NCBI GenBank assembly: GCA_020630835.1
Contig: JAHDIL010000022.1
Span: forward strand, 260-11,151
Direction of reading: 5' to 3'
Origin: Verrucomicrobiota bacterium
GTDB lineage: Bacteria; Verrucomicrobiota; Verrucomicrobiia; Verrucomicrobiales; DEV007
Length of the DNA stretch: 10,892 bases
The notes under the pieces are model-generated. The model made no database searches and had not been told where the DNA came from. It saw only the letters and a list, made by a program, of their open reading frames with translations. The position numbers and the translations under genes are program-made. Shown piece by piece: positions 1 through 3,942 of this stretch; positions within the stretch are counted from its first letter, which is position 1, and each line of letters starts with the position of its first letter.

Positions 1-199
1 CATTGATTGCGTCTTAGGTGCTCTACGCCGCGTGTTGCTGGCCCCAGAAATGCCGAGCCTCATTGAGGAAGGTTGCCGAAAGCTGAAGGTGCGACGTTTC
101 CCGTATGCGCTGATCTACACGTTGGAGGCTGGTGACGTTCGCATACTCTCGGTGAATCATCTACATCGAGAGCCGCTTTACTGGGTAGGGCGGATCTGA
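1..199 (+). CDS. RelE/ParE-family toxin, C-terminal fragment cut by window edge
   Basis: Only the last 65 codons are visible, read from base 2 and ending in TGA at 197-199. The fragment carries the family's C-terminal pattern: a basic strand (CRKLKVRRF), then FPYALIY, then a strand ending in an H-x-H (NHLHRE) and a terminal YW. The same signature (FPYAxIY ... H..R.P.YW) is found in the two complete toxins at 827 and 1631, so this is a third, divergent relative. In the RelE/ParE superfamily such proteins either cleave mRNA at the ribosome or poison gyrase; which applies here cannot be told. Its antitoxin would lie to the left of the window. The trailer after its stop resembles that after the toxin at 827, indicating that the cassettes share ancestry outside the genes too. 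Confidence 0.85.
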   Translation, partial: IDCVLGALRRVLLAPEMPSLIEEGCRKLKVRRFPYALIYTLEAGDVRILSVNHLHREPLYWVGRI

Positions 200-230
200 C
201 TGAAAAGCGCCCAAAAATTGTGCTTCCGGT
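200..230 (+). repeat. Cassette trailer repeat, copy 1
   Basis: The 31 bases directly after the toxin stop match, without gaps, 1118-1148 after the next toxin (shared pieces include AAAAGCG and TGTGCT). A weaker relative follows the third toxin at about 1926-1945. It marks the 3' boundary of a duplicated toxin-antitoxin unit. No terminator with a T-tract is visible. Confidence 0.55.
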
Positions 231-260
231 TGGTGCGCTGGCCGGTGTTAGGGTTGGTTT

Positions 261-352
261 CTAGCCAGGGGGAGATCGTGGATTGGGGAGAAGGGAGCCT
301 GTGTTTTGTTCAGTGGGCTGGCCTTGTTCCACGCGTTCACACGCGCGGCTAC
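261..352. repeat. REP doublet (REPIN/BIME-like), copy 1, left half degenerate
   Basis: Two palindromic units face each other. The right unit, read on the minus strand, has GTAG (complement of 349-352), arm CCGCGCGT, loop GTGA and arm ACGCGTGG (complement of 329-348), an 8-bp stem with one G-U wobble. The left unit at 261-282 is a damaged plus-strand relative: CTAG instead of GTAG, with a lost 5' arm but an intact 3' arm, GATCGTGG. The spacing and the intervening G-rich stretch match the doublets at 382 and 1179. GTAG followed by an imperfect hairpin is the hallmark of REP elements mobilised by RAYT-type (IS200/IS605-like) transposases. No RAYT gene is in the window. Calling it a REPIN is inference from structure. 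Confidence 0.65.
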
Positions 353-381
353 GGGGTTTGCATGTGTGTTAGGGTGGGTTT

Positions 382-464
382 GTCGCCACGATCGTGAGAT
401 CGTGGAATGGGGGAGAATTTGACAGTGGGCTGGCCTTGTTCCGCGCGTTTACACGCGCGGCTAC
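382..464. repeat. REP doublet (REPIN/BIME-like), copy 2
   Basis: Left unit on the plus strand: foot GTCG (382-385), arm CCACGATC (386-393), loop GTGA, arm GATCGTGG (398-405), a perfect 8-bp stem. Right unit on the minus strand: foot GTAG (complement of 461-464), arm CCGCGCGT, loop GTAA, arm ACGCGCGG (complement of 441-460), also a perfect 8-bp stem. The two units point toward each other with about 35 bases between. This doublet and the one at 261 form a tandem duplication of roughly 120 bases, both starting with GTGTTAGGG (245-253 and 366-374). Confidence 0.72.
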
Positions 465-550
465 GGGTGATGGCGTGGTAGCATATTTTGTCTGTCTCTG
501 CACGCACCCTCATGAGAGAAACCGGCAAGAGAAGACTGGAGAAAAGGAGG
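465..550 (+). promoter_or_regulatory. Conserved antitoxin leader, copy 1, with AGGAGG ribosome binding site
   Basis: These 86 bases align without gaps to 1274-1359, with about ten differences, and both end at the ribosome binding site of an antitoxin gene. Shared words include GCATATTTTG and TGTCTCTGCACG. A perfect AGGAGG lies at 545-550, three bases before the ATG at 554. The strip lies between a REP doublet and the antitoxin, so the promoter and autoregulatory operator are expected here, but I see no convincing -35/-10 pair. The frame is open back to a TTG at 488 and an ATG at 512, so a longer basic N-terminus cannot be excluded. Confidence 0.45.
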
Positions 551-553
551 ATG

Positions 554-823
554 ATGGTTTACACTGAGGCTATGAATGCTGCCACCGTTAGCTATGAGGA
601 AGTCGAGGATGTGACCTTACAGATGGCTCGTGCTGATCGGTCCCGCTTAGCCTCCAAGCTGCTGGAGAGCCTTGATGGGGATAACGGCACGGACATCAGC
701 CCTGAATGGATCTCTGAGCTAGATCGACGCGTGAAGGCTCATGAGGCTGGTGAAATGGGAAGCCTCTCCTTTGAAGAGGTGTGCCAGCGGCTCGATAATC
801 GGCGTTCCGCACTCGCCACCTAG
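554..823 (+). CDS. Addiction-module antitoxin (Unstab_antitox-like), cassette 1
   Basis: An 89-residue antitoxin that would bind and neutralise the toxin starting three bases after its stop. Its pattern fits the putative addiction-module component family: a helical N-terminal half ending in RSRLASKLLESLD, the conserved S-P-E-W, a charged helix (ELDRRVKAHEAG), then an S.EE. segment near the C-terminus. Family members pair with RelE/ParE toxins and usually repress their own operon. I chose the ATG at 554 for its spacing from AGGAGG; ATG at 551 and 572 are alternatives, and 572 would give the more usual 83 residues. The first 41 residues differ from the antitoxin at 1363 at only three positions, whereas the remainder is strongly diverged. 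Confidence 0.85.
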   Translation: MVYTEAMNAATVSYEEVEDVTLQMARADRSRLASKLLESLDGDNGTDISPEWISELDRRVKAHEAGEMGSLSFEEVCQRLDNRRSALAT

Positions 824-826
824 AGG

Positions 827-1117
827 ATGCAGATCACCTATCTGGATGCCGGCTGGAATGAGCTGTTGGAGGCGAATGACTGGTATGAGGAGCAGGGATC
901 GGATATAGCCGAGCGCTTCATCCTGGAATGGAAACGGGCTAATCGGCGTATGGTCGGTGACCCGGAGACAAACCGGGCCTTCCACGGGAACTATCGCCGT
1001 TGCCGATTCGATGTGTTCCCTTACGCTCTCATCTATCGGATTACAGAGGAAGCGACAGTCGAGGTGACCGCCGTGATGCACCAGCATCGTGCACCCGGCT
1101 ACTGGAGCGACCGTTGA
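827..1117 (+). CDS. RelE/ParE-family toxin, cassette 1
   Basis: A complete 96-residue toxin. It shows a first helix with WYEEQG, a second helix starting AERF, the loop GDPETNR, a basic strand (RRCRF), FPYALIY, and the C-terminal strand with H-x-H ending in GYW. This is the order expected for the ParE/RelE fold. A hand alignment to the toxin at 1631 is gapless over 96 residues, with about 43 identities, which supports the ATG at 827. The antitoxin stop is three bases upstream and its TAGAGG provides the only ribosome-binding sequence, so translation is probably coupled. The target (mRNA or gyrase) cannot be read from the sequence. Confidence 0.88.
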   Translation: MQITYLDAGWNELLEANDWYEEQGSDIAERFILEWKRANRRMVGDPETNRAFHGNYRRCRFDVFPYALIYRITEEATVEVTAVMHQHRAPGYWSDR

Positions 1118-1148
1118 CCAAAAAGCGTCCGAAAACTGTGCTCCTGGT
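1118..1148 (+). repeat. Cassette trailer repeat, copy 2
   Basis: Gapless match to 200-230 just after the toxin stop. AGCGACC at 1106-1112 (inside the toxin end) and GGTCGCT at 1146-1152 form a 7-bp inverted repeat with a 33-base loop. It has no T-tract and is not shared by the other copy, so I do not call it a terminator. Confidence 0.5.
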
Positions 1149-1178
1149 CGCTTCTTAGGCTGGTGTTAGGCTGAATTT

Positions 1179-1273
1179 GTAGCCGCGACCGTGAGGTCGT
1201 GGATTGGGGGGGAAGGGAGCCTGTGTTTTGTTAGTGGGCTGGCCTTGTGCCACGCGTTCACACGCGCGGCTAC
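1179..1273. repeat. REP doublet (REPIN/BIME-like), copy 3, most complete
   Basis: Left unit on the plus strand: foot GTAG (1179-1182), arm CCGCGACC (1183-1190), loop GTGA (1191-1194), arm GGTCGTGG (1195-1202), 8 bp with one G-U wobble. Right unit on the minus strand: foot GTAG (complement of 1270-1273), arm CCGCGCGT, loop GTGA, arm ACGCGTGG (complement of 1250-1269), again 8 bp with one G-U wobble at the same place. The two units share the foot, outer stem and loop and differ only in the three inner pairs, which change on both sides together. It occupies the same position, just before the antitoxin leader, as copy 2. Confidence 0.75.
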
Positions 1274-1359
1274 GGGTGTTGGCGTGGCGGCATATTTTGC
1301 CTGTCTCTGCACGTGCCTTCATGGGAGAAACCGGCAAGAGAAGACTGGAGAAAAGGAGA
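1274..1359 (+). promoter_or_regulatory. Conserved antitoxin leader, copy 2, with AGGAG ribosome binding site
   Basis: Counterpart of 465-550 in length and sequence. AGGAG at 1354-1358 sits four bases before the ATG at 1363. Conservation of the non-coding leader is about as high as that of the antitoxin N-terminal half. This suggests either recent duplication or sequence exchange, and makes it the likely site of the shared promoter and operator. No clear promoter boxes are seen. Confidence 0.45.
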
Positions 1360-1362
1360 ATG

Positions 1363-1626
1363 ATGGTTTACACTGAGCATATGAATGCCGCCGCCGTTAG
1401 CTATGAGGAAGTCGAAGACGTGAGCCTACAGATGGCCCGCGCTGATCGGTCCCGCTTAGCCTCCAAGCTGCTGGAGAGTCTTGATTACGAGGACGGTCTC
1501 AGCCCTGAATGGCTCGCTGAGGTCAAGCGGCGAATCGCTGCTATTGATGCGGGAACAGCGACGCTGGTTCCTCGTGAGGAAGCGATGAAGCGTATAACGG
1601 ACCATCTAGCGTCGTTGCGATCCTGA
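1363..1626 (+). CDS. Addiction-module antitoxin (Unstab_antitox-like), cassette 2
   Basis: An 87-residue antitoxin of the same family as that at 554. It has a near-identical N-terminal half through LLESLD, then S-P-E-W, a charged helix (EVKRRIAAIDAG), V.REEA and a basic C-terminus. The C-terminal half, which in this family contacts the toxin, fits the family consensus better than the first copy but shares little with it. In the common half most base differences are silent (GCT/GCC, GAG/GAA, GAT/GAC, CGT/CGC), a sign of selection on the protein. The open frame extends far upstream through the REP doublet, but I start at ATG 1363 for ribosome-site spacing; ATG 1360 and 1381 are alternatives. 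Confidence 0.85.
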   Translation: MVYTEHMNAAAVSYEEVEDVSLQMARADRSRLASKLLESLDYEDGLSPEWLAEVKRRIAAIDAGTATLVPREEAMKRITDHLASLRS

Positions 1627-1630
1627 AGTG

Positions 1631-1921
1631 ATGGAAGTTCGCATTGATGACCTCGCGATTGAAGAGATCCGCGAGGCAACGACCTGGTATCACGAGCAGG
1701 GAGGTCTGTTGGCTGAGCGCTTCGTTGGAGAACTCAACAAGGCGCTCGATAAGATGGAGAGTGATCCTGAGCGCAACGGTGTGATCGAAGCAGGCTTGCG
1801 AAAGTGCCGCCTGAACGCGTTCCCATACGCTGTGATCTACCGCCTGACCGCGCCCGATCAAATCGAGGTGGTGGCAGTCGCGCACCATAGCCGCTCGCCG
1901 CGATACTGGAGGGATCGCTGA
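1631..1921 (+). CDS. RelE/ParE-family toxin, cassette 2
   Basis: A 96-residue toxin with the same fold markers as the one at 827: WYHEQG, AERF, SDPERN, RKCRL, FPYAVIY, an H-H pair and the terminal RYW. The ATG at 1631 makes the protein line up end to end with the other toxin; a GTG at 1628 would add one residue. The gap to the antitoxin stop is four bases, so the pair is one transcription unit and translation is probably coupled. Toxin divergence (about 45% identity) against near-identical antitoxin N-termini suggests non-interchangeable toxin-antitoxin specificities. Confidence 0.88.
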   Translation: MEVRIDDLAIEEIREATTWYHEQGGLLAERFVGELNKALDKMESDPERNGVIEAGLRKCRLNAFPYAVIYRLTAPDQIEVVAVAHHSRSPRYWRDR

Positions 1922-2284
1922 GCTAGGAAAAGTGCCCAATAATCTTGGGGATATGCAAAATGTGCGAACGAACCCGACTTTATTAGCGGAATGTTAGTTT
2001 TAGGCCCGAGCTTAGGTCGCTTTCGGCACGGGCGCGGCTCAGAACCTTCAATTCGAGACAATTTGGCGCTTTGTGCAGTGCTGTTGTTCCACCTAATGAG
2101 CACAGCTCTGCCTCAGAGGATCTTTATTTCCTCTCGGTGAGTGGCGGCCGCTCCTACGGATTGTGTGATCTCAGCGAATTCACTCAATGGGGGGGATTCT
2201 GAGATCTCGAAGTGTTCGTATACTGCGCCACAGCGCTTCTTTCAATTCTCGCTGAACAGGGAACGATTGTGAGAAAATTGCACC
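1922..2284. other. Stretch without a recognisable gene, two weak dyads
   Basis: No convincing coding frame is present. Two structures are visible. GAGTGG / CCGCTC (2139-2153, loop CGG) is followed at once by the complement of GTAG (2154-2157), so it may be a REP of another type. GATCTCAG (2167-2174) is matched by CTGAGATC (2199-2206), an 8-bp inverted repeat with a 24-base spacer containing a run of seven Gs. Neither has a T-tract. The beginning weakly resembles the trailer of the other cassettes. The rest may be decayed cassette or intergenic sequence. Confidence 0.4.
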
Positions 2285-2366
2285 TATTTTGCCTGTCCCT
2301 GACCGCAGCTCGTCCCTGACCGCAGCTCTATTTTGCCTGTCCCTGCACGCACTGTCCCTGCACGCA
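2285..2366 (+). repeat. Degenerate, internally duplicated copy of the cassette leader
   Basis: Short tandem duplications are stacked here. GTCCCTGACCGCAGCTC occurs at 2295-2311 and 2312-2328, TATTTTGCCTGTCCCTG at 2285-2301 and 2329-2345, and CTGTCCCTGCACGCA at 2337-2351 and 2352-2366. The last two words correspond to the leader before both antitoxins (ATATTTTG.CTGTCTCTGCACG). It looks like a leader that lost its antitoxin gene and underwent slippage or nested duplication. Confidence 0.65.
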
Positions 2367-2398
2367 TTTGTGTGTTTTGACAGCGAGCTGGCCTTGTT

Positions 2399-2422
2399 CC
2401 ACGCGTTTACACGCGCGGCTAC
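2399..2422 (-). repeat. Single REP-like palindrome downstream of the DUF393 gene
   Basis: Read on the minus strand: foot GTAG (complement of 2419-2422), arm CCGCGCGT, loop GTAA, arm ACGCGTGG, 8 bp with one G-U wobble, identical in design to the right-hand unit of the three doublets. The flanking GCTGGCCTTGTT is also shared. No left partner is present. It begins 17 bases past the stop of the minus-strand gene at 2440 and reads in the same direction, so it would sit in that mRNA's 3' end. A role in stabilising or ending the transcript is possible but unproven. Confidence 0.68.
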
Positions 2423-2439
2423 GGGGGGATGGGGTGGTG

Positions 2440-2865
2440 TTAGTCTTTTTTATCAAATGAAATATCGCAGGATCCCTGACAACCGAGGAGTTTGCTGAAT
2501 TTTAGGCGCCTCTTGGCCACAAAGGTGTAGATGGGGTCTGCTACGTAAAATATACCCGGAATGGACAAGATGAGACCAAGGGGAAGGAGGAGAGGTATAC
2601 GAAACCCGAGCTGACGGAATGCGCGTGCGCCTCTGTGCACGCTGCCTTTATGAGAGAAGAAATGAATCTCTTCTTGGAGTTGCTGACGGGTGACTGCGGC
2701 GTCCAGGCCTTCTGAATCTGCCTGTTGCAGCGGTTTTCGGTCTATTCGGTCAAACCAATCGAGCCGTCCTATTAGTTGCATTTGTGTGGTGCACATGGGG
2801 CACTCGCCGTCGTAGAGGAGGAGGTCTCTGGAAAGTTTGAGATTATGTTTTCTGGGCGCCTGCAT
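2440..2865 (-). CDS. DCC-family (DUF393) thiol-disulfide oxidoreductase-like protein
   Basis: A 141-residue protein. Near the N-terminus it has the family signature LLYDGECPMC, with D19, C22 and C25 forming the D-G-x-C-x-x-C motif. A hydrophobic stretch follows at about residues 89-112 (IPLLLPLGLILSIPG), as is usual for this family, then a basic segment. Members are annotated as putative thiol-disulfide oxidoreductases; the substrate is generally unknown. The C-terminus carries a second close cysteine pair (LGCQGSCD), which could be a further redox or metal site (inference). It lies 36 bases downstream of the zinc-ribbon gene on the same strand, so they may be co-transcribed. No clear Shine-Dalgarno is seen before the ATG. 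Confidence 0.85.
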   Translation of the reverse strand: MQAPRKHNLKLSRDLLLYDGECPMCTTQMQLIGRLDWFDRIDRKPLQQADSEGLDAAVTRQQLQEEIHFFSHKGSVHRGARAFRQLGFRIPLLLPLGLILSIPGIFYVADPIYTFVAKRRLKFSKLLGCQGSCDISFDKKD

Positions 2866-2901
2866 GTTTTACCGTAAATGGATTACGAAGAAATTTATTT
2901 C

Positions 2902-3141
2902 TTAGCTTCCTTCTTGGCGGCGTTCTTCCAGGATTCTTCGTGCTTCGTCTGCCCATGCCGGACGGTCAGGTCCGCCACAGGAGTGGTTAGGATCTTCCAC
3001 TACAAGATCCCAGCGGTCTTGGCAGCCGCGGCAGCGATAGGCGACAAAGTCTCCGGTCTCCCATCCAAATTCAGGCTCGGGTGTCAGACGGTAGGCTTTT
3101 TCGCCGCAGTCGACGCAAATGATGTCTTCGGGGATGTCCAT
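2902..3141 (-). CDS. Small zinc-ribbon protein, function unknown
   Basis: From the ATG at 3141 this encodes 79 residues with two cysteine knuckles: CVDCGEKAYRL at the start and YRCRGCQDRW in the middle, i.e. C-x2-C ... C-x2-C as in a zinc ribbon. The tail is charged and helical (ADEARRILEERRQ). Longer starts exist, up to ATG 3201, but that one would leave only six bases to the divergent gene at 3208 and adds a low-complexity stretch before the knuckle, so I prefer 3141. It is probably first in an operon with the DUF393 gene. I do not recognise a specific role; RNA, DNA or protein binding are all possible for such domains. Confidence 0.65.
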   Translation of the reverse strand: MDIPEDIICVDCGEKAYRLTPEPEFGWETGDFVAYRCRGCQDRWDLVVEDPNHSCGGPDRPAWADEARRILEERRQEGS

Positions 3142-3207
3142 CTCACAGGATGAGGAAGTGGCGTTATCGCCCTTGCTCTGGTTGCTAAGTTGCCACACCA
3201 TGGATCA

Positions 3208-3942
3208 ATGAGCAAGAGAGCAAGGCCGCCTGTAGTCATTCTCGTGGAGCCGCAGATGGGGGAAAACATCGGAATGTGCGCGCGGGCTATGTTGAATTTC
3301 GGCCTTTCGGAGTTGCGCCTGGTCTCGCCGAGAGATGGGTGGCCAAATGCAGCGGCTATCGCTACAGCAGCTGACGCTGACGCGGTGCTGGAGGGGGCTC
3401 GGGTATTTCCTGACCTCAGGAGTGCTATCGCTGACTGCACCGCTGTCTATGCGACAACGGCGAGAAGCCGAGCTCTGGAGCTCCCCGTGTGGGAGGGTGA
3501 TGAGATACGGGATGTATTTTCGGAGTCGGAGAGTGCGGGCGATGACTCGAGGCGCTTGGGAGTCCTGTTTGGTGCCGAAGCCTCTGGTCTAACGAATGAA
3601 CAGGTAGCGCTGGCGACAGGGGTGTTTACCTTTGCGACGAATCCGCAGTTCCCTTCGCTGAATTTGGCCCAAGCTGTCCTGTTGGTGGCCTCTTATTGGT
3701 CAAGCTGCCAGGTGGTGGGGAACCCGCGGGAGGGGAGTCCAGTGGCGCCGCATGCTGCCGTGTATGCTTGGTTGGATCGGTTGTTTTTCGATCTTGAGGA
3801 ACGAGGTTTCTTTCTTTCTCAGGAGCAGCGGCCTGCCATGGAGCAGCAGTTGCAAGTTTTGCTATCGCGGGCGGCGGTGACGGACAGGGAGCTAAAGATC
3901 CTGCATGGTGTTTTGACGGCATTGACTGCGGATCGGAAATGA
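3208..3942 (+). CDS. trmJ: TrmJ-type tRNA (cytidine/uridine-2'-O-)-methyltransferase, SpoU family
   Basis: A 244-residue SPOUT-class methyltransferase expected to 2'-O-methylate a nucleotide in the tRNA anticodon loop using S-adenosylmethionine. The three family motifs are visible: N-terminal VEPQMGENIGMCARAMLNFG (N20, R26), the cofactor-knot motif VLFGAEASGLTNEQV (about 119-133), and FPSLNLAQAV (about 148-157). Length matches TrmJ (E. coli about 246 residues). The C-terminal helical part (RLFFDLEERGF...) also matches the TrmJ extension. A TTG at 3190 would add six residues; ATG 3208 is preferred. It diverges from the zinc-ribbon gene and is followed after 40 bases by the PurC-like gene in the same direction. 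The exact tRNA position cannot be read from the sequence. Confidence 0.85.
   Translation: MSKRARPPVVILVEPQMGENIGMCARAMLNFGLSELRLVSPRDGWPNAAAIATAADADAVLEGARVFPDLRSAIADCTAVYATTARSRALELPVWEGDEIRDVFSESESAGDDSRRLGVLFGAEASGLTNEQVALATGVFTFATNPQFPSLNLAQAVLLVASYWSSCQVVGNPREGSPVAPHAAVYAWLDRLFFDLEERGFFLSQEQRPAMEQQLQVLLSRAAVTDRELKILHGVLTALTADRK

Follow-up and report, generated by a model that had tools for sequence, protein, structure and literature searches.

Opposed palindromes in a Verrucomicrobiota genome as probable REP doublets of a RAYT clade

Described REP systems and the palindromes of the window

Repetitive extragenic palindromes (REPs) form a common class of repeats in bacteria, and the parts of their hairpins that are read by REP-associated tyrosine transposases (RAYTs), namely a foot plus stem irregularities or the loop on single strands, have been tested in three systems (PMC8266576). 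REPs have been defined and their preserved complementarity in Stenotrophomonas described (PMC3686654, PMC2817692), subclasses of RAYT enzymes are distinguished (PMC6006769), and compensatory changes are reported for REPINs, i.e., inverted REP doublets (PMC3116915). Within a stretch of 10,892 nt from an uncultured Verrucomicrobiota bacterium (contig JAHDIL010000022.1; hereafter the window), we studied six palindromes which very probably are REPs in opposed doublets, the layout of REPINs and of bacterial interspersed mosaic elements (BIMEs). They would represent non-autonomous single-stranded DNA (ssDNA) repeats on which a RAYT acts in trans, the enzyme belonging to a clade of the Planctomycetes-Verrucomicrobia-Chlamydiae (PVC) superphylum within the TnpAREP family, and make up a genuine REP/REPIN family of a known kind. 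The palindromes are dispersed, share a foot-stem-loop anatomy, occur as doublets and exhibit compensatory inner pairs, and beside RAYTs of this clade the outer stems are clade-specific.

The GTAG superfamily (Di Nocera et al., 2013; PMC3733652), some of whose families come from Opitutus terrae (Verrucomicrobia) and from Rhodopirellula baltica, shares with the repeats described here the GTAG tag, stems of mostly 6-9 bp, a short loop and HH dimers in which GTAG points outward, as well as REPtrons, heterodimers and subfamilies whose stem changes are complementary. Many of its loops are TY or CMA, whereas they are GNNA here, a comparison that leaves aside its 24 consensus stems. For the preference for heterodimers that study gives 'no obvious explanation' and offers protection from SbcCD as a possibility. 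The REPINs of Pseudomonas fluorescens (PMC3116915) likewise are inverted REP doublets in tandem clusters, linked to a RAYT and with compensatory changes; however, they are described as symmetrical and as forming one long hairpin, while the ends of the present doublets usually differ in their inner stems. With the Escherichia coli BIME, in which REP y is combined with z1 or z2, and with TnpAREP (4ER8; PMC8266576), the repeats share the GTAG foot and the occurrence of two partner types, and probably also strand-specific ssDNA recognition of the foot and a stem irregularity. This irregularity is an AA-GC bulge in E. coli; in the present case its place is taken by G.T at pair 3 or, in the sister clades of the RAYT, by a tandem G.A. 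The RAYT is approximately 18% identical to 4ER8 in a structural alignment. Group 3 REPtrons of Stenotrophomonas and Marinomonas (PMC8266576) resemble the repeats in their perfect stem and probably also in having essential loop bases (the first G for Sm; T, T and A for Mb), but differ in loop length, loop sequence and host phylum. A REP family of the present RAYT clade was not met in our literature search, which had figures and supplements outside its reach.

An earlier note on this DNA had listed six palindromes, and all were recovered at the same positions and strands as 24-nt matches with at most 3 mismatches (200 shuffles: mean 0.07, largest 2). With their feet directed outward, they and a seventh, decayed element form units in head-to-head arrangement at 261-352, 382-464 and 1179-1273, and a half unit remains. 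The right half of unit 1 (329-352, minus strand) reads GTAG CCGC GCGT GTGA ACGC GTGG, and so does the right half of unit 3 (1250-1273, minus), for which pattern matching was used. The left half of unit 2 (382-405, plus) is GTCG CCAC GATC GTGA GATC GTGG, its right half (441-464, minus) GTAG CCGC GCGT GTAA ACGC GCGG, and the left half of unit 3 (1179-1202, plus) GTAG CCGC GACC GTGA GGTC GTGG; these three and the copy at 329 were identified by pattern matching and folding. The half unit (2399-2422, minus), again a pattern match, has no recognisable left partner, but on its spacer side (2375-2398) similarity to the other units persists. By spacing and folding, 382-464 and 1179-1273 are REPIN-like head-to-head doublets with spacers of 35 and 47 nt, thus the pairs are only roughly 'spaced alike' as had been noted. 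The earlier block began at 261, where an element is indeed present; a three-unit alignment identifies it as a decayed seventh REP (261-281, plus; left half of unit 1) with the foot CTAG and a 3-nt deletion. GTTAGGG or GTTAGGC precedes three of the units, for which reason integron attC sites were also considered, by eye.

Read copy by copy, the anatomy agrees with the earlier note: the foot is GTAG in five of the six palindromes and GTCG at 382, the third outer pair is G.T at 329, 1179, 1250 and 2399, G-C at 441 and A-T at 382, the loops are GTGA or GTAA, and the inner triplets CGT/ACG, ATC/GAT or ACC/GGT. All four palindromes that were folded (329, 382, 441 and 1179) formed an 8-bp hairpin as ssDNA on the GTAG (GTCG) strand. 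In DNA folding, the G.T-bearing copies at 329 and 1179 formed all eight pairs on the GTAG strand only (-8.8 vs. -5.9 and -7.9 vs. -4.9 kcal/mol), and those with A-T or G-C at the third pair (382 and 441) folded nearly alike on both strands.

Dispersal and association with RAYT genes

The window is part of a 1.8-Mb assembly of 276 contigs that is 52% complete. In this assembly the pattern GTAGCCRCGNNNGTRANNNCGYGG, allowing up to 2 mismatches, occurred at 25 places on 10 contigs, 16 of them exact and nine with 1-2 mismatches, and the reversed control gave 0. A covariance model of 41 rows yielded 33 matches at E<=1, with 150 of 933 candidates scored, and at least 150 in the congeneric genome G016. 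The palindromes are therefore not confined to the array of the window. In a survey of 95 genomes, own included, at up to 1 mismatch, the pattern was found in 29 and at least four times in 13 (G016 135, G039 51, G028 41, G045 39 and G024 33), as compared to 12 matches of the reversed control in 9 of the 95, with a maximum of 2 per genome. By crude open reading frame (ORF) calling, none of 12 REP clusters in the own genome lay inside an ORF of >=80 aa, and 3 of 24 in G016 lay inside one of >=100 aa. The repeats thus combine a GTAG/GTGG tetranucleotide and palindrome (GTCG in one of the six window copies) with many dispersed, extragenic copies, as is characteristic of GTAG-type REPs.

The earlier note had suggested looking for a Y1-type RAYT gene flanked by the same palindrome. 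Such a gene is present in G016, where on one side about 100 N separate it from the array, and its 192-aa product P0001 has an HUH motif and the Tyr in the Y1_Tnp fold; none was found in the own assembly. A scan of named genomes gave at least 244 confirmed RAYT relatives, and the analysis continued with the best 80. When 7 of 8 stem pairs were required, GTAG hairpins occurred within 450 nt of 43 of these 80 RAYTs and on both sides of 37, and with a tandem G.A step allowed, at 68 loci, on both sides in 57. By this inclusive rule, flanks shuffled with base composition alone preserved gave hairpins in 61/1600 cases on any side and in 1/1600 on both, and distant stretches of up to 1.8 kb per locus, i.e., twice the flank length, in 11/79. 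Together with the dispersal and the doublets, the 68 loci support the RAYT-linked REPIN/BIME layout that had been proposed.

The loop was GNNA in 171 of 210 perfect hairpins near RAYTs and in 80 of 84 of the G.A type. Among 180 perfect four-loop hairpins, G.T occurred 52 times at pair 3, 16 times at pair 2 and at most five times elsewhere. A quickly searched tree of these 80 RAYTs, in which 20 of the 77 inner branches are starred, requires 6 changes of stem type over the 68 labelled rows, as compared to a mean of 20.9 and a minimum of 16 after shuffling. For the outer quartet 20 changes are required (shuffled mean 47.8, minimum 43). The outer pairs track the RAYT tree, with little variation inside a locus.

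The tandem G.A mismatch (5'-GA/3'-AG) is found in REPs of sister RAYT clades at 26 of the 68 labelled loci (L177, L182, L185-L186, L192, L195 and others up to L253), for example GTAG GAGAC GA C GTGA G GA GTCTC. The RAYT-REP arrangement also occurs in records named Lentisphaerae, Pirellula and Pirellulaceae (L190, L191, L235, L238, L240, L245).

Stem architecture, unlike partners and rival explanations

The earlier note had taken covariation of the inner pairs as support for a fold. Since units 1-3 are mutually related, the window alone offers few compensatory changes; in the rest of the genome and in G016 the signal is strong. In two sets of 17 and 60 elements found by 12 outer bases, the inner four pairs were fully closed in 15 and 52 (shuffle means 4.0 and 6.2), with 6 and 19 distinct inner quartets, respectively. 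Of the 308 inner cells, 297 were Watson-Crick, 10 mismatched and one G.T, while the third outer pair was G.T in 74 of the 77 elements. The covariation score of 34 distinct elements was 0.518 as compared to 0.111 when shuffled; these, like the 17 and 60 elements above, come from stretches retrieved by a pattern in which outer bases, fifth pair and GTRA loop were fixed, so that the inner three pairs alone were free of choice. The loop was GTCA in 12 of 77 elements, and GCCA and GCTA occur near other RAYTs, i.e., the loop class is GNNA and not GNRA. As inner G.T is almost absent, ssDNA is favoured over RNA, and of the 'RNA or single-stranded DNA' initially considered the data, including these loops, favour DNA. 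Loops of the type d(GNNA) are stable in DNA.

Within 34 RAYT loci comprising 175 perfect four-loop REPs, outer bases differed in 0.7-13% and inner bases in 10-38% of comparisons, figures that favour paired cells because the foot and 7 of 8 pairs were required. Between loci the outer bases differed in 31-70%. Stem positions 5, 6, 7 and 8 showed two or more types of Watson-Crick pair inside one locus in 19, 22, 13 and 7 loci, positions 3 and 4 in 5 and 1, and positions 1 and 2 in none.

In the own genome, neighbouring REPs within 200 nt were oriented +- in 7 and -+ in 8 cases, with no ++ or --; in G016 there were 17 +- (one an overlap artefact), 16 -+ and 15 same-strand neighbours. Facing REPs rarely carried the same inner quartet. 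At the RAYT loci, where GNNA-loop hairpins with at least 7 pairs were considered and 25 of the 80 loci contributed facing pairs, this applied to 5 of 55 pairs with 20.7 expected (5000 shuffles, minimum 10), and among tail-to-tail neighbours to 1 of 47 with 15.4 expected. As the shuffles take copies within one array as independent, per-locus figures are fairer: all facing pairs were different in 21 of the 25 loci (null mean 11.1, maximum 18), and the first facing pair was alike in 3. The counts of alike pairs in the own genome (0/7) and in G016 (0/14) are not telling alone, random pairing giving about 0.9 and 1.1. When 20 native doublets were folded as DNA, the inner closing pairs formed with mean probabilities of 0.51 and 0.46. 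Unlike partners are thus predicted to allow two complete hairpins, without ensuring them.

The following mechanism would be in line with these observations. The RAYT may read the GTAG foot, the outer pairs and the GNNA loop, with G.T at pair 3 in the REP family of the window making the GTAG strand alone fold fully. It would then cut the folded single strand beside the foot and rejoin it, movement being assumed by analogy with published work on E. coli TnpAREP. Because only pairing would be required of the inner pairs, these could drift as matched sets, and facing partners that stay different could each fold their own hairpin instead of collapsing into one long hairpin. A two-part stem code may tentatively be proposed, in which outer pairs and loop are recognised by and co-evolve with the RAYT, the inner quartet is any complementary sequence with both arms rewritten together, and the doublet ends must differ in the inner quartet to fold apart, which would explain the heterodimer preference. 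As G.T intermediates are almost absent, rewriting of both arms might occur by, e.g., template switching at the hairpin. The 68 natural RAYT-REP associations predict that specificity comes from outer pairs and loop, not from the inner quartet, and that unlike partners let the hairpins fold apart; together, two-part stem and unlike partners make the old, unexplained heterodimer preference testable.

Several results weigh against this interpretation. In the 52%-complete own assembly, searches with Pfam Y1_Tnp and the RAYT of G016 gave 0 RAYT matches, as did a 16-row profile even at E<=10, and the RAYT of G016 scores below the curated cut-off of NCBIfam NF047646 REP_Tyr_transpos (51.7 vs. 80 bits, E 8.5e-14), which is a naming threshold rather than a biological feature. 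The G.A rule was added post hoc, after the first flank scan had missed the sister-clade stems and these were recognised by hand, and the count without it is 43/80. Even with it, 12 of the 80 loci lack a GTAG hairpin, among them L178 and L179, two of the four nearest homologues, and a third, L176, has a single match of doubtful value. Among the 180 perfect four-loop hairpins beside RAYTs, 86 have an open outermost pair, leaving a stem of often 7 bp, and two of five covariation measures were not above shuffles (two-sided-change pairs, 44/500; further pair types, 365/500). The outer quartet is equal in only 32 of 55 facing pairs and different in 23, and the outer clamp is therefore not absolute. 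Outer stems of doublet partners can pair with each other, and the outermost REP pair in the 20 native doublets reached mean probabilities of only 0.22 and 0.11 in DNA folding, which lowers the odds for the two-part code. Finally, no empty site or excision product was seen; the congeneric genomes are too distant for such a comparison, the adjoining SpoU gene occurring in 27 of 33 (own included, G016 not), with 47-59% identity outside the own genome, one 45-residue fragment of 40% aside.

Other explanations differ considerably in how well they account for the data. That the hairpins are transcribed as terminators or mRNA stabilisers, with selection on RNA structure causing the covariation, is unlikely, although frequent G-T pairs have been argued to suggest RNA roles of GTAG repeats (PMC3733652) and 12 of 24 clusters with ORF neighbours in G016 lie between convergent ORFs (7 co-directional, 1 divergent, 4 at stretch ends; crude ORFs). 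Such placement is not seen in the own genome (3 convergent, 2 divergent and 3 co-directional among 8 clusters with both neighbours), the near absence of inner G.T is unlike RNA helices, which change via G-U, and the GTCA, GCCA and GCTA loops lie outside GNRA. Two of five terminator-like sites in 1-3300 (460-479 and 1269-1288) start inside a REP foot; however, none of the five stems equals the REP stem and their number is near the shuffled 3.6, and terminators were thus rejected. Rfam gave no match on the window palindromes at E<=1 and none at the gathering threshold on four loci, so that identity with a curated RNA family was likewise rejected. It is very improbable that the copies are mere by-products of a duplication of toxin-antitoxin cassettes, without mobility of their own. 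The window does contain a 270-nt repeat, 89% identical, that comprises REP, leader and antitoxin start, and the relatives of one window toxin that the genome yielded are all copies in this array, but REP copies on 9 further contigs contradict local duplication. In addition, the toxins are only 39-45% identical and the REP units far more alike, which suggests that the units were exchanged or inserted later.

The species might also have lost its RAYT and retained the REPs as fossils, in agreement with the missing gene, the degenerate copies and the decayed element at 261-281. We consider this possible but rather doubtful, as a single-copy gene would be missed about half the time at 52% completeness, and 16 of the 25 copies are exact. 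A stronger contender, falling not far short of an even chance, concerns the unlike partners: homotypic long palindromes may be cleared by SbcCD-type hairpin nucleases, as proposed earlier (PMC3733652), with no need of the RAYT for separate hairpins. In DNA folding, homotypic versions of the 20 native units lost the separate hairpins, all the above pair probabilities dropping to 0.00, and would therefore expose one long hairpin. On the other hand, homodimers are common in some other families (PMC3733652), and tail-to-tail neighbours are just as heterotypic as facing ones. As the amplification of one mixed array would also result in heterotypic tail-to-tail neighbours, clearance and folding models are not separated by this observation.

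Toxin-antitoxin setting and further observations

The REPs of the window are located among toxin-antitoxin modules, with Unstab_antitox and ParE_toxin pairs at 551-1117 and 1360-1921 and a partial toxin match at about 20-190 (C20:279-449). The stretches 418-687 and 1227-1496 make up the 270-nt repeat, while the whole antitoxins are 61% and the toxins 45% identical; the intergenic part is far more alike and therefore seems to have been exchanged or converted. A plasmid origin was rejected, as 200-2500 had no megablast match in 72,556 plasmid records.

A second repeat, TATTTTGCCTGTCCCTGCACGC, is present at 484-507, 1293-1316, 2285-2308 and 2329-2352 and precedes each of the two antitoxin genes; contig C54 carries it in tandem close to a DUF433 gene (L151:7232-7420). 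Its exact 15-nt core TTTTGCCTGTCCCTG was found in 4 of the 95 genomes, six times in the own genome and once in each of the other three. By its letters only, the repeat resembles the GGGGWSAS motif in terminal repeats of other Y1 transposases (PMC3733652). The segment 3983-5305 encodes a protein of 440 residues with a match to SAICAR synthetase (PF01259, model length 233) over residues 174-339.
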